DNA of 48,508 bases from the NCBI GenBank assembly GCA_002843155.1, contig PGZD01000012.1:1-48508 (forward strand), in the 5' to 3' direction. The DNA is from Gammaproteobacteria bacterium HGW-Gammaproteobacteria-3. Lineage in GTDB: Bacteria > Pseudomonadota > Gammaproteobacteria > Methylococcales > Methylomonadaceae. Under the pieces are notes generated by a model, which saw nothing but the letters and a program-made list of their open reading frames with translations, was not told the origin of the DNA and made no database searches. Each line of letters opens with the position of its first letter. The first letter of the stretch is position 1. Below, in pieces: positions 4,927 to 38,453 of the stretch. Both the position numbers and the translations under genes were made by a program.

Positions 4927-4943
4927 TGTCAGCTTTTTTTACA
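4927..4943 (+). promoter_or_regulatory. TGTCAG box 1 (distal)
   Basis: TGTCAGCTTTTTTTACA, an imperfect palindrome. First of three near-identical 17-bp boxes; the next begins 195 bp downstream. Proposed activator site, from pattern and position only. Confidence 0.5.
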
Positions 4944-5000
4944 AGGTGATCAGCATTTGCCCTGCGCCAATATCCTGCAATTATTATGCCTGCGCATCTC

Positions 5001-5030
5001 GTAGGAGCCCGGTAAACCTAAGCGACGGGC
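5001..5030 (+). repeat. REP-like repeat family B, left arm of exact 30-bp inverted pair
   Basis: Begins GTAGGAGCCCGGTAAACC and ends AGCGACGGGC. An exact reverse complement lies at 5272-5301. The family recurs at 5198-5220, 6483-6506, 13153-13238 and 13594-13656. Confidence 0.75.
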
Positions 5031-5033
5031 GGA

Positions 5034-5062
5034 AAGGGTGAATAAGCAAAGCGCATCCACCC
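5034..5062. repeat. REP-like palindrome, family A copy 2
   Basis: AGGGTGAATAAGCAAAGCGC followed by ATCCACCCT; a degenerate copy of the 1676-1705 palindrome. It directly follows the family B copy. Confidence 0.6.
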
Positions 5063-5121
5063 TGCATTTTCTATTGGTCGGGTTACGAAATGCATGTAAT
5101 CCAATCGATGCAACCTGTCTA

Positions 5122-5138
5122 TGTCAGTTTTTTTTACA
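5122..5138 (+). promoter_or_regulatory. TGTCAG box 2
   Basis: TGTCAGTTTTTTTTACA. It differs from box 1 at one base and lies within the second unit of a roughly 100-bp degenerate direct repeat that also shares CGCCAATATCCTGC. Confidence 0.5.
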
Positions 5139-5197
5139 AAATTATTTATCGTTTGCCCGGCGCCAATATCCTGCGATAATTGCGCCCGCACACCCCC

Positions 5198-5220
5198 GTA
5201 GAGCCCGGTTTACCGGGCGA
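5198..5220. repeat. REP-like repeat family B
   Basis: GTAGAGCCCGGTTTACCGGG plus CGA; a compact hairpin with GCCCGGT/ACCGGGC arms. Confidence 0.65.
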
Positions 5221-5271
5221 ACAAGCAGCATCCATGCCCCAAGCGCCCAAGGCGCAATAAGCCTGTTCCTT

Positions 5272-5301
5272 GCCCGTCGCTTAGGTTTACCGGGCTCCTA
5301 C
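5272..5301 (-). repeat. REP-like repeat family B, right arm of exact 30-bp inverted pair
   Basis: Perfect reverse complement of 5001-5030 across 241 bp. The pair encloses TGTCAG box 2; box 3 starts 10 bp beyond the right arm. Confidence 0.75.
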
Positions 5302-5311
5302 GCTGCGCCTG

Positions 5312-5328
5312 TGTCAGGTTTTTTTACA
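5312..5328 (+). promoter_or_regulatory. TGTCAG box 3 (promoter-proximal)
   Basis: TGTCAGGTTTTTTTACA, 190 bp after box 2 and about 75 bp upstream of the sigma-54-type promoter. That is a usual distance for an enhancer-binding activator site. Confidence 0.55.
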
Positions 5329-5402: not shown

Positions 5403-5418
5403 AGGCACGCTAAATGCG
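5403..5418 (+). promoter_or_regulatory. Sigma-54 (RpoN) type -24/-12 promoter for the PEP-CTERM gene
   Basis: AGGCACGCTAAATGCG. GG at 5404-5405 and GC at 5416-5417 are exactly 10 bases apart, the invariant spacing of sigma-54 promoters (consensus TGGCACG-N4-TTGCA). Control of PEP-CTERM genes by RpoN with the PrsK/PrsR two-component system is known in other PEP-CTERM bacteria. Use here is inferred. Confidence 0.6.
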
Positions 5419-5431
5419 TTATATTTTTCGG

Positions 5432-5466
5432 AAGATAAAAACAGCGTTGAGTACTGTTTTTATCTT
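5432..5466 (+). promoter_or_regulatory. Perfect 13-bp stem-loop in the predicted 5' UTR
   Basis: AAGATAAAAACAG (5432-5444) pairs perfectly with CTGTTTTTATCTT (5454-5466) across a 9-nt loop. It lies 14 bp past the proposed -12 element and 115 bp before the PEP-CTERM ATG. No U-tract follows the stem, so a simple terminator is unlikely. An mRNA leader structure or a regulator site are the alternatives. Confidence 0.55.
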
Positions 5467-5581
5467 AATAATGAGGACAAAATCTTTTTTAACAATGCCA
5501 CACCTGTTGCGAAACAGGGCCGGAAAGCCTTAGAACTCAGTAACACGAGTTAGCTTAGGCTGCACAACCGAGGAATACGTC

Positions 5582-6433
5582 ATGTTTAGTTATCTCAAAA
5601 AAAATAACGGCTTTCGGCTTTTACTGCTGTCCGCCTTGATGACAGTAAGTATTGCCGTCCAGGCGGCGCCAGTATTACAGGTAGGCGCGCCAGCGGGCAG
5701 TGGAGATACAGGCTTCTATGCCGATGTTCAGGCAAACACCACCGATCCTACAGAAACCGATACGGCTATAACCGGCGGCACCACCATTTTATTCGCGGGC
5801 ATAACAGATGGTTTACTGAAACTGGGCGGGCAATTTTCAGGCACCCAAGGTACTGGCGCTAATTATTCTACGGTTGGCAACGGCAACAATGCAAATCCCG
5901 ACCGGTCAATTTTCGACAATCAAGGTGGCGCCATTGTCTTTGTAACCGTTGCGCAAGGCTTGGGTCAAAGTGTTTTCAACAATCTGACTTTAAATAGTGT
6001 CAATGCATTTGCTTGGCAAGACGCAGCCGAGCAATTATTCCCAAACAGCCACGCCCCGGTAAAAGACGCAACGTCGGATTTTGTATTTTTCAATATCGGG
6101 AATTTTTCCGGCACAACCGCGATACCTGATTTTCAAGATGAGTCACTAGGTAATAAAACAGGAGAAATTAAAGAAGTCACCTTAGGCGGCATTCTGAATA
6201 CTTTTGAATGGCTGCATTTTGATATTATTGCTTTGGCTACCGACATACAGGGACAAACTACTTTAAGAACAACGCTTGATAACAACCCGGGGTCACATGA
6301 TGTTACTTTCAAAAACCCTGATTTTAACCCCCCCAATCCCGATCCAGAACCCATTCCAGAGCCTCCAATGGTCTGGCTATTAGGTGCCAGCTTATTGATG
6401 CTGACCGGGTGGCTTCGTAAACACAAATCTTAA
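5582..6433 (+). CDS. PEP-CTERM sorting-domain surface protein
   Basis: Exported protein of 283 aa whose C-terminus is a substrate for exosortase/EpsH. An N-terminal signal peptide (LLLLSALMTVSIAVQA, cleavage before APVLQ) is followed by a Gly/Asn/Thr-rich, Cys-poor body with no recognised catalytic domain. After a proline-rich linker (PNPDPEPIPEPP) comes the sorting signal: PEP, a hydrophobic segment (VWLLGASLLMLTGWL) and basic RKHKS. AGGAA lies about 10 bases before the ATG. Such proteins are usually tied to extracellular polysaccharide. No exosortase gene is in the window. A sigma-54-type promoter lies upstream and a strong terminator downstream, so it is probably monocistronic. Confidence 0.9.
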   Translation: MFSYLKKNNGFRLLLLSALMTVSIAVQAAPVLQVGAPAGSGDTGFYADVQANTTDPTETDTAITGGTTILFAGITDGLLKLGGQFSGTQGTGANYSTVGNGNNANPDRSIFDNQGGAIVFVTVAQGLGQSVFNNLTLNSVNAFAWQDAAEQLFPNSHAPVKDATSDFVFFNIGNFSGTTAIPDFQDESLGNKTGEIKEVTLGGILNTFEWLHFDIIALATDIQGQTTLRTTLDNNPGSHDVTFKNPDFNPPNPDPEPIPEPPMVWLLGASLLMLTGWLRKHKS

Positions 6434-6482: not shown

Positions 6483-6506
6483 GTAGGAGTCCGGTTTACC
6501 GGACGA
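6483..6506. repeat. REP-like repeat family B
   Basis: GTAGGAGTCCGGTTTACCGG plus ACGA, directly after the terminator; TCCGGT/ACCGGA arms. Confidence 0.65.
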
Positions 6507-6698: not shown

Positions 6699-8891
6699 CT
6701 ATTTTTTACCTCTGGCGGTAGAGGTGGAACCGACGCTTATCGATACGCTGGCGCCTTGGGCGTTACCGGCTTTATCAAAAGCTTCAACCGTATAGGTAAA
6801 AGTGCCGGTTCCGGGTTTGTCGGTATAGCCGGTGCCGGTAATCGAGGCAATTTTGCTGCCATTGCGGCTCACGACATAGTGATCAAAACCCGAACCTGAA
6901 TCGCTGGAAGCACTCCAGGAAACGGCTACCTGCGATTTTCTTTTTACCGCTGCACTCAAGTTGCCGGGCGCTGTGGGCGCTGTGCCATCGACGACGACCG
7001 TGGCTGATTTTGTTACAGCGGTATGGGCTGCGGCAGAAGCGGTAACGGATTGGGTATAACTGCCGTCGGCACTGGGCGCGGTGGCGGCCCAAGCGGTTGC
7101 AGCCGAGCTTCCGGGGCTGAGAGCGAAAGCGCCCAGAGCCGTGCCGTCACTTGCGGTCAGGGTAAAAGTTGTTAGCCCGCATACTGAAGAGTCTTGATTG
7201 GCCAACGTGATATTGTAGCTGACAGAGGCACCGGCCAGTGTATAAACCGAGGTGGGCGCGAGTGTCAGTGCCGGCGTATTGCTGATACAGGTTTCGACAA
7301 TGGGTGCTGAGGTCGTTGCGCTGGCGCTGTTGGAGTAGCTTGAGTTGCCGATACTGTTATACGCCCGCACCCGGTATTGATAAGTTGTCGATGCGGCCAG
7401 GCCATTATCGGTGAAACCGGTGACATTACTGCTCACGACGGCGATTTCCGACCAATTCACTCCATCCGCCGACCGTTCCAGCCGGAAGCCGGTCTCGTTA
7501 CCGGCATTATCGGACCAGCTCAAGCCGATTTCGCTGTCGGACAAAGCCAGCGCCGAAGCGTTGCCGGGTGCGTTGGGCAAGGTGGTATCGACACTGGCCC
7601 TGAATGCCGCGACAATGCTTTTGGTATTGGTCATGGAGCGGGCGTTGTCTTCAGTCGCGGTGCCGGTAAATTCGCCGTTATAAATCACATTGGGATTGGA
7701 AAAATAGCTGATTTGCGTACCGCCGCTGCAGGAATAGGCCATTACCGTGCGAAAACCGCCGCTTTGACATAAGCGGTAGGCATAGGAGTAATCAAAAGAA
7801 CCTGCTACACCCGCGTTTTCCCTGTTATGGGCATCGCCTTGATTATGCCCGAGTTCATGTGCCAGAGTATTGTTCGAGAGACAGGCGCTGCGCGAATCAT
7901 CGTGTATTACGCTGAAAGCATAAGGCGCGAATGAACTACCCGCATTGCTCATAACATAAGCGATACCGCAGAAGTTGGCATCCGCCGAAACCAGAGCGAC
8001 CTGATCAGCACCGTATTGTGTGCGCAAGGCATGAATTTCGTCCATTTTACCGTCATTGGCACCGGTTATATCGTTCAGGGTGACGCCCATATCACCGCTT
8101 TCGGTATAATTGGTTTGAACCATGTGGACGAGATTCAACTGCATGTCGATATTGCTGTTGATATAAGCCTGATTGGCTTTTGCCACCGCATTGACTATTT
8201 TGCTTTCTATGCCCGCCTGTCCCGATGCGTTGGTCAGGGCTTTGGGCGTATAGGCCACGAGCAGGTCGATGACGGTGCCGCTTCCTGTGGTCGCCGCGCT
8301 GGTCGAAACGCTATCCGGTGATACCGTGGGGTCGATTTGACCGCCTTCGGCGACAAAATCCTCGATTGTTTTCGATTCACTGTGCTTGGGGTTTTTACTC
8401 GGATCGACCTGGGTGATTTCATGCAGGCCATTGGCTCCGACATTGACTTCATACAAGTTTTCACCGATACGCACGGTGCCTGACAGGACGTTGCCGATGA
8501 CGGTCAAAAACACTTCGCTGTCAGGCTCGCCTTCAACATGGCCGATCCAGGTGCTGCGGCCTTTGACTTTATCCACCAGGCGGTCGCGCACGGCAGTAAT
8601 AACTAAATCATCGAAAAGATTCAGCGTCAGAGCATCCGACCACAAAAGATCGGCATGAACCTTGACCGAACGGTTTCTGCCCTTGACAGCTTTGGGCGGC
8701 AGCACTTTATTGGTTGTTTGCGTGACGCCAAAAACATCGAACAAATCCGGCGCCACGGCGCTTTTTTTCCGGCTGTTCTGGCCTCCTGCACCGGCTTGTC
8801 CTGGATTTGCGGCTTGATGAGCATCGGCCCCCGCGAAAGGAACGAGTGCCGACATCAGCAGCGAGACTGATAGTGTTTTGGTAAATTTCAT
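6699..8891 (-). CDS. Secreted metzincin-type metalloprotease with fibronectin type III domains
   Basis: Predicted exported zinc protease of 730 aa. The start at 8891 puts AAGAGAAGAG just upstream and a signal peptide (LSVSLLMSALVPFAGADA) at the N-terminus; the longer frame to 8966 adds 25 residues with neither. A propeptide-like region fills about 25-200. The catalytic domain holds HELGHNQGDAH at 345-355, the HExxHxxGxxH zinc site, and a Met-turn candidate (TVMAYS) about 27 residues on, as in reprolysin-like M12 enzymes. Then come a fibronectin III repeat (about 440-530), a beta-rich region, and a second fibronectin III repeat near the C-terminus. It ends in RGKK with no PEP-CTERM tail. Substrate unknown. 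Confidence 0.85.
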   Translation of the reverse strand: MKFTKTLSVSLLMSALVPFAGADAHQAANPGQAGAGGQNSRKKSAVAPDLFDVFGVTQTTNKVLPPKAVKGRNRSVKVHADLLWSDALTLNLFDDLVITAVRDRLVDKVKGRSTWIGHVEGEPDSEVFLTVIGNVLSGTVRIGENLYEVNVGANGLHEITQVDPSKNPKHSESKTIEDFVAEGGQIDPTVSPDSVSTSAATTGSGTVIDLLVAYTPKALTNASGQAGIESKIVNAVAKANQAYINSNIDMQLNLVHMVQTNYTESGDMGVTLNDITGANDGKMDEIHALRTQYGADQVALVSADANFCGIAYVMSNAGSSFAPYAFSVIHDDSRSACLSNNTLAHELGHNQGDAHNRENAGVAGSFDYSYAYRLCQSGGFRTVMAYSCSGGTQISYFSNPNVIYNGEFTGTATEDNARSMTNTKSIVAAFRASVDTTLPNAPGNASALALSDSEIGLSWSDNAGNETGFRLERSADGVNWSEIAVVSSNVTGFTDNGLAASTTYQYRVRAYNSIGNSSYSNSASATTSAPIVETCISNTPALTLAPTSVYTLAGASVSYNITLANQDSSVCGLTTFTLTASDGTALGAFALSPGSSAATAWAATAPSADGSYTQSVTASAAAHTAVTKSATVVVDGTAPTAPGNLSAAVKRKSQVAVSWSASSDSGSGFDHYVVSRNGSKIASITGTGYTDKPGTGTFTYTVEAFDKAGNAQGASVSISVGSTSTARGKK

Positions 8892-9389
8892 GGCTCTTCT
8901 CTTTTTTGTTGAGTTGATAACAATTTCATGAGGTGAAAGCCAAAAAAACCGACCGCTGTCGATCAATCCGGCAATCCCACTGTCATAGGAAAAATTCCGT
9001 TAGACTGGAAACTTTGCGTCACCCTCTTTCGGGGGTTTTGCCTTTATTCAGATTAATGGGTTTAACTTCAGGCCGGGAAACCTTAGCGGCAGCCCGTCCT
9101 TAGAGTTGATTTAAAGTGTAATGAAAATTCCAGTAAATGATGTGACAGATTAAGCAAAATCCTGTTGGGACTGAGCGAATTGTTTTTATTGTTGTTTGAT
9201 GTGTGCGCAATGTCTCATTTCACTTGTCCAGCAAGATAGGATGGGCTAACGAAGGAAGCCCATGGTGCGTGATGATTGATGGGCTTCGTGCCCCGGCCCA
9301 TCCTACGACGCTTTGTGCATTTGAAGTATATAAAATCAATCTTAGGCCGTTCTTAAAACTTTGCAGATCTCAAGACGCTTCCTGAAATA
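8892..9389. other. Intergenic region with a nested inverted repeat
   Basis: About 500 bp between the protease start and the yfbR stop. Only the palindromic element at 9237-9305 stands out. CCCTCTTTCGGGGG near 9021-9034 could form a small hairpin. No clear promoter for the protease was recognised. Confidence 0.4.
9237..9305. repeat. Nested inverted-repeat element
   Basis: Outer arms TAGGATGGGC (9237-9246) and GCCCATCCTA (9296-9305) are perfect complements. Inner arms GAAGCCCAT (9255-9263) and ATGGGCTTC (9279-9287) are also perfect. Together they form a two-step hairpin of about 69 bp with no coding frame. Confidence 0.65.
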
Positions 9390-38088: not shown

Positions 38089-38453
38089 GCCGATCAGTCC
38101 GTGTTTTTAGAAGCCATTCGATCATTTATGCCTTATTTAATCCAGTTTCGGCACCTCGGCGACGCCATGAGCTTGCGCCTGAATTTGAAGTATAAAACAC
38201 AGGATGGAAAAGCTTAAGAACAGGCATAAATTAATTTACGCAATTACCATGAAGAACATGAAAGGCATGAAGAACATGAAGTCTTCATGTCCTTCATGTT
38301 CTTCATGGTTTAAAAATAAAACCTGCTCAAGTTTTTTTCTGCACTTTCCTTAAGCGCTCCACCTTTTGCCGGATTTATCCAGCCTACGTCTGAAGACGAG
38401 GATATTGACCCAGGCCAACCGGAAAACGCGCAACACGGAATAGCCGAGGCTGA
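38089..38453. other. Intergenic region between secF and ndk
   Basis: About 365 bp. The main feature is the CATGAA inverted repeat at 38247-38308. TTATCCAGCCTAC near 38376 is a fragment of the family A repeat. No terminator for secF was recognised. Confidence 0.4.
38247..38308. repeat. Long inverted repeat built from CATGAAGAA units
   Basis: The 26-bp arms 38247-38272 and 38283-38308 match at 24 positions with a 10-nt loop. Each arm is itself made of repeated CATGAAGAA/CATGAAGG-type units. The transcript could fold into a stem of about 26 bp. No open frame is involved. Confidence 0.75.

Follow-up and report, generated by a model that had tools for sequence, protein, structure and literature searches.

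A predicted PrsR-type promoter with three boxes and a c-di-GMP-I riboswitch leader upstream of a PEP-CTERM gene in Methylococcales

Architecture of the PEP-CTERM locus

The window analyzed here is the whole of a 48,508-nucleotide stretch of DNA (contig PGZD01000012.1, our C58) from Gammaproteobacteria bacterium HGW-Gammaproteobacteria-3, a member of the Methylococcales whose 3.13-Mb genome is assembled in 135 contigs. Near its start lies a forward-strand gene (5582-6433) for a choice-of-anchor N / PEP-CTERM protein of 283 aa. The protein scores 70.8 bits against the choice-of-anchor N model NF038141 (cut-off 40), and its C-terminal PEP-CTERM signal scores 19.1 bits against TIGR02595 in the genome scan and 14.6 bits when the protein is searched alone, around a cut-off of 16. 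No orthologue of this protein was found among the named genomes.

Three forward-strand copies of a 17-nucleotide box, TGTCAG-N-TTTTTTTACA, precede the gene. Box 1 (TGTCAGCTTTTTTTACA, 4927-4943) and box 2 (TGTCAGTTTTTTTTACA, 5122-5138) are predicted distal PrsR-type sites, and box 3 (TGTCAGGTTTTTTTACA, 5312-5328) is the predicted PrsR-type site nearest the promoter. They differ solely at position 7 (C/T/G), and their starts lie 195 bp (box 1 to box 2) and 190 bp (box 2 to box 3) apart, as the initial annotation had described in pointing to a near-regular array with a single variable base. A search of the whole window at up to two mismatches returned nothing beyond these three boxes; shuffled windows gave a mean of 0.62 matches at up to three mismatches, and none of 100 shuffles reached four. 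Boxes 1 and 2 are products of a local duplication: 85 nucleotides following box 1 (4934-5018) recur on the same strand after box 2 (5130-5214) at 71% identity, with a local score of 59 where shuffles reached 19 at most. The duplication that the annotation had placed around these two boxes is thus real, at this measured length instead of the roughly 100 bp first proposed, and box 3 lies outside it.

The region between the boxes also holds a perfect 31-nucleotide inverted repeat, with arms at 5000-5030 and 5272-5302, the latter ending 9 nucleotides before box 3. The arms are copies of a REP-like dispersed intergenic repeat, GTAGGAGCCCGGTAAACCTAAGCGACGGGC, and are not boxes; the same repeat occurs again at 6493 and at many other sites in the genome, at times in pairs whose members lie about 200-215 bp apart (contigs C24 and C77). 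Far downstream, at 38244-38311, a long imperfect hairpin is formed by the repeated unit CATGAAGAACATGAA, probably a coding or tandem repeat, and its match to an animal microRNA model is a chance one.

Downstream of box 3, by 74 nucleotides, is a predicted forward-strand sigma-54 -24/-12 element of the form GG-N10-GC (AGGCACGCTAAATGCG, 5403-5418), at essentially the 75 bp claimed for it previously. Its score is moderate, the -24 part beginning AGG and not TGG, and roughly 1.3% of positions taken at random in the window have as good a score at such an offset. Given this element, transcription would be expected to start near 5429. A perfect 13-bp hairpin (5432-5466, forward strand), perhaps a stabilizer of the mRNA, would then stand at the 5' end of the transcript, ahead of a feature that the earlier account of the promoter-gene interval had omitted: a predicted c-di-GMP-I riboswitch aptamer (5487-5568, forward strand) in the leader of the PEP-CTERM gene. 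The aptamer scores 46.1 bits against RF01051, above the gathering threshold of 35, and 43.1 bits against RF03167 (c-di-GMP-I-GGC), below the threshold of 59, and the leader folds more stably than its shuffles (z -3.6). Read against the family alignment, a consensus G-C pair in the short helix of the aptamer is swapped to C-G; in the related copy L051 the pair next to the swapped one appears altered on both sides as well. Immediately 3' of the aptamer we read a likely Shine-Dalgarno sequence, GAGGAA (5570-5575, forward strand), six nucleotides ahead of the ATG, and this adjacency makes translational control plausible.

A second c-di-GMP-I riboswitch (8967-9052, reverse strand; RF01051 77.2 bits, stronger than the leader copy) precedes the convergent gene for a secreted metalloprotease (6699-8966, reverse strand) similar to the biofilm-associated Mep72. 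It is one of two RF03167-type matches in the genome; the other is presumably the aptamer at 5488, and if so, the genome's two riboswitches both serve two neighboring genes.

Boxes, PrsR and promoter spacing across genomes

The genome-wide statistics that follow come from pattern searches of the contigs. The box pattern has five exact and four one-mismatch matches in the 3.13-Mb genome, and the reversed-pattern control has none. All five exact copies (three in the window and one each on C82 and C92) lie upstream of PEP-CTERM genes, which answers the call of the initial annotation for such a scan. The one-mismatch copies lie before a PEP-CTERM gene on C108, within a coding sequence on C90 and, as a pair, on C24. 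Four of the five TIGR02595 genes in the genome scan have a box, the exception being on C111, and the C92 gene, like that of the window, has three, 321 and 187 bp apart. On C24 (57236-57274) the paired boxes are separated by 22 bp, or roughly two turns of the helix; a sigma-54 element follows at 63 bp, and the pair precedes a Sel1/SLT lytic transglycosylase gene. This gene, while not a PEP-CTERM gene, is likely an additional PrsR target. Reverse-strand matches to TGTCAGGAATTTATACA near the C82 and C108 genes were rejected as boxes because, on our reading of the translation, they fall in the coding start of a neighboring gene and in its duplicated fragment. Two matches on C90, one inside a hemN-like open reading frame and one just beyond a gene end, were treated as chance.

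Haft and colleagues reported in 2006 that PEP-CTERM genes of proteobacteria are preceded by a 17-nucleotide motif with TTTACA at its end, present in some cases as repeated copies, of which the most 3' lies 62.8 nucleotides (SD 10.6) before a sigma-54 motif, and they proposed PrsR as its binder (PMC1569441). The window boxes agree with this motif 1 in length, in the TTTACA end and in placement before a PEP-CTERM gene; the GG-N10-GC element, at a gap of 74 nucleotides, falls within 32-92 nucleotides of the most 3' copy; and the genome encodes PrsK (TIGR02916, 701 bits against a cut-off of 300) and PrsR (TIGR02915, 718 bits against 502.6) as neighbors on C46. The PrsR-site motif, its repetition and the PrsR proposal are therefore already known, and the window boxes are a further instance of that kind.

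Beyond this genome, TGTCAGNNNTTTTTACA was found in 94 of 201 genomes of Methylococcales. A combined pattern of box, 55-85 nucleotides and YGG-N9-TGCW was matched in 77 of the 251 order genomes searched and in 24 of a phylum sample of 398, and its reversed control gave one match per search. In a sample of 55 genomes, hand-chosen from the lists of these searches, PrsR scored above its cut-off in 22 of the 23 with box and promoter versus 2 of the 32 without (Fisher P 5e-12). Those two are the PrsR genomes of the box-negative set, and they lack the pattern. One genome (G016) has three box-promoter matches without a PrsR above the family cut-off, so that its PrsR has either diverged or fallen into a gap of the assembly.

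Agreement with the Haft motif, confinement to PEP-CTERM genes, the presence of prsK-prsR, co-occurrence across genomes and the spacing to the promoter all support the identification of the boxes as very probable PrsR sites of a sigma-54 promoter, much as the initial annotation had suggested. In the literature searched, we found no published binding test of PrsR on its site. Two other readings of the boxes deserve mention. They might be pieces of a mobile or dispersed (REP) repeat that plays no part in regulation, the outcome that the initial annotation had named as its own refutation, and REP-like repeats do lie between them and at many other sites in the genome. Those repeats, however, differ from the boxes in sequence and do not contain them. 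The genome-wide distribution of the boxes contradicts the repeat reading too: they are neither embedded in a repeat nor scattered irrespective of gene class, and the intergenic boxes outside the window precede PEP-CTERM genes or the one lytic transglycosylase gene, and a sigma-54 element lies at the customary distance from them. We regard this reading as very improbable. Binding by another NtrC-family regulator or by a nucleoid protein that favors T-tracts has somewhat more to recommend it, since some dozen AAA+ activators are encoded in the genome and a T-tract is part of the box, but the co-occurrence is specific to PrsR, as it was in the earlier phylogenetic profiling, and TGTCA and ACA are conserved beyond the T-tract; such a binder seems to us improbable.

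The distance from the proximal box to the promoter keeps to one helical face. The gaps of 142 box-promoter pairs in the 251 order genomes fall into two peaks, at 62-64 bp (n=55) and 72-75 bp (n=62), with few at 66-70 bp (n=2) or 76-81 bp (n=4), and 47 gaps from outside the order behave likewise (26 at 61-63 bp, 7 at 72-73 bp and 1 at 66-70 bp). For a period of 10.5 bp the circular statistic reaches 0.72 within the order and 0.71 outside it, exceeding all of 20,000 uniform draws; the counts take in some paralogous or orthologous pairs, and the two samples were drawn from separate genome groups. The window's box 3 sits on the larger peak, although it is absent from the counted pairs because its -24 element starts AGG. 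Two such peaks are what would be expected if activation required PrsR to stand on one set side of the helix with respect to the polymerase. The text of Haft and colleagues, searched for helix, helical and phase, does not mention phasing and gives the gap as a mean, SD and range only. The rule makes a direct prediction: lengthening the interval from box 3 to the promoter by 5 bp should abolish activity, and lengthening it by 10-11 bp should bring the activity back.

The upstream boxes

Promoters of Methylococcales commonly have extra upstream boxes, which share one orientation, stand at a broad spacing of about 200 bp and are without a promoter each. In a sample of fetched loci that is enriched for arrays, 23 of 44 promoter-bearing boxes have a further one, pointing the same way, within the 600 bp upstream. 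Upstream boxes in the opposite orientation accompany six of the 44, three of them in divergent promoters and three involving the TGTCAGGAATTTATACA coding-sequence match. A sigma-54 element at the usual distance follows 3 of 50 distal boxes, two of which see the promoter of the proximal box, versus 40 of 82 last boxes. We looked for separate sigma-54 promoters belonging to boxes 1 and 2 and found none at the usual distance. Across the order the distances between boxes are broad, from 22 to 534 bp. Those above 50 bp are non-uniform (KS P 0.003), with a median of 209 bp, which makes the 190-195 bp of the window typical of the order, and they are enriched at 170-215 bp, a bin picked post hoc; helical phasing of the box-box distances was not significant (P 0.058). 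Tighter triple arrays, of a geometry unlike the roughly 200-bp arrays, also exist: L048 (in G055) has three boxes 25 bp apart and L058 (in G189) three boxes 42 bp apart, and both arrays have a sigma-54 element at one of the customary distances.

What, then, might boxes 1 and 2 do? We favor the view that they are extra PrsR sites in the orientation of box 3, most likely raising PrsR occupancy or oligomerization there. Box 3 might instead be the sole working site, boxes 1 and 2 being passive leftovers of the duplication and of inserted repeats, spaced almost regularly by coincidence. The flank that the two share, the dispersed repeats that occupy the inter-box region and the breadth of the order-wide distances are all in keeping with that history. 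The boxes are nonetheless intact at 16 of 17 positions, although drift has left the duplicated flanks only 71% identical; flank duplication is absent from most multi-box promoters of relatives, and about half of the promoter-bearing boxes in the array-enriched sample have a further same-orientation box. We hold this alternative to be possible but less likely than not. NtrC-type activators work through DNA looping, and the array could have been built for it, PrsR on the distal boxes contacting the promoter or the PrsR of box 3 through loops some 190 bp long. The non-uniform distances, their median and the post hoc enrichment would suit such loops. The distances vary widely, however, their helical phasing is not significant, and many promoters have the proximal box alone. 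We regard an array designed for looping as possible but less likely than not.

A two-input model and its relation to known systems

Returning to the reading of the boxes as PrsR sites, we consider it probable that the locus combines a PrsK/PrsR-RpoN promoter of a PEP-CTERM surface protein with a c-di-GMP riboswitch. PrsR is one of the NtrC-type activators and has a Fis-type DNA-binding domain; in its phosphorylated form it would bind box 3 and, positioned 74 bp upstream on a set face of the helix, would drive open complex formation by sigma-54 RNA polymerase at 5403-5418. The transcript would then run through the c-di-GMP-I riboswitch, and because the aptamer's 3' end abuts the Shine-Dalgarno sequence, protein output would depend both on the PrsK signal and on the level of c-di-GMP; the response of the riboswitch to its ligand, like the sign of that response, is a prediction of this model.

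The leader of the window is one of a recurring type. Its core, GCYACACC-N12-GGGCCRGAAAG, has at least 120 matches in the named genomes, and most of the copies checked pass the RF01051 threshold. Among the matches listed, 113 have an intact hairpin (the window and L051 included) and 88 of these a complete downstream open reading frame. By a simple ad hoc rule, not a curated model, that looks for P-x-P, hydrophobic and basic segments at the end of the open reading frame, a tail resembling a sorting signal follows 41 of the 113 listed copies versus 28 of 1123 other open reading frames at the same loci. Box, sigma-54 element, riboswitch and tailed gene are clear together in the window and at L051, L172 (Methyloprofundus), L201 (Methylobacter), L233 (Ca. 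Methylobacter favarea) and L234 (Methylomonas); two weaker cases, L134 and L144, have a box and no good promoter at the usual distance. Our search of the literature found no record of PrsR boxes combined with a c-di-GMP riboswitch. It is tempting to generalize, and we do so tentatively, giving the idea a little less than an even chance: some exosortase-substrate genes of Methylococcales may form a two-input gate, with transcription set by PrsK/PrsR through a proximal box on a fixed helical face and distal boosters, and translation set by a c-di-GMP riboswitch.

PrsR has been a predicted regulator of PEP-CTERM genes since 2006. What is new relative to the literature searched is the rule of the helical face, the account of distal boxes across the order and the recurrence of a leader that joins PrsR boxes to a riboswitch. 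The leader riboswitch would tie the exosortase/exopolysaccharide system of methane-oxidizing bacteria directly to c-di-GMP, the main second messenger of biofilms.

The closest known relatives of this locus are the motif 1/motif 2 promoters (PrsK/PrsR/PrsT) of Haft and colleagues, with which it shares a repeated 17-nucleotide motif ending in TTTACA, a sigma-54 motif, prsK-prsR and a long non-coding leader followed by a PEP-CTERM gene. It departs from their description in its three boxes 190-195 bp apart and in the c-di-GMP-I riboswitch of its leader, and the gap that they gave as a mean of 62.8 and SD of 10.6 is resolved here into helical steps (62-64 and 72-75). The pepA gene of Aquincola tertiaricarbonis, as presented in the excerpted text of its report (PMC9850573), is a PEP-CTERM gene that resembles ours in its dependence on RpoN (there RpoN1), in its -24/-12 promoter, mapped there by experiment, and in a predicted upstream enhancer, but its intergenic region is about 85 nucleotides and a riboswitch goes unmentioned in that excerpt. 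The aptamer has the fold of the c-di-GMP-I (GEMM-I) riboswitches of RF01051 and RF03167 and a score above the RF01051 gathering threshold; it differs from those families in its C-G-swapped core and in its placement behind a sigma-54 promoter with PrsR boxes. In Methylophaga nitratireducenticrescens GP59, according to the available portion of the report (PMC12530212), c-di-GMP riboswitches flank four PEP-CTERM/VPLPA-CTERM genes near exopolysaccharide genes; PrsR boxes and sigma-54 promoters, which set the present locus apart, are not discussed in that portion.
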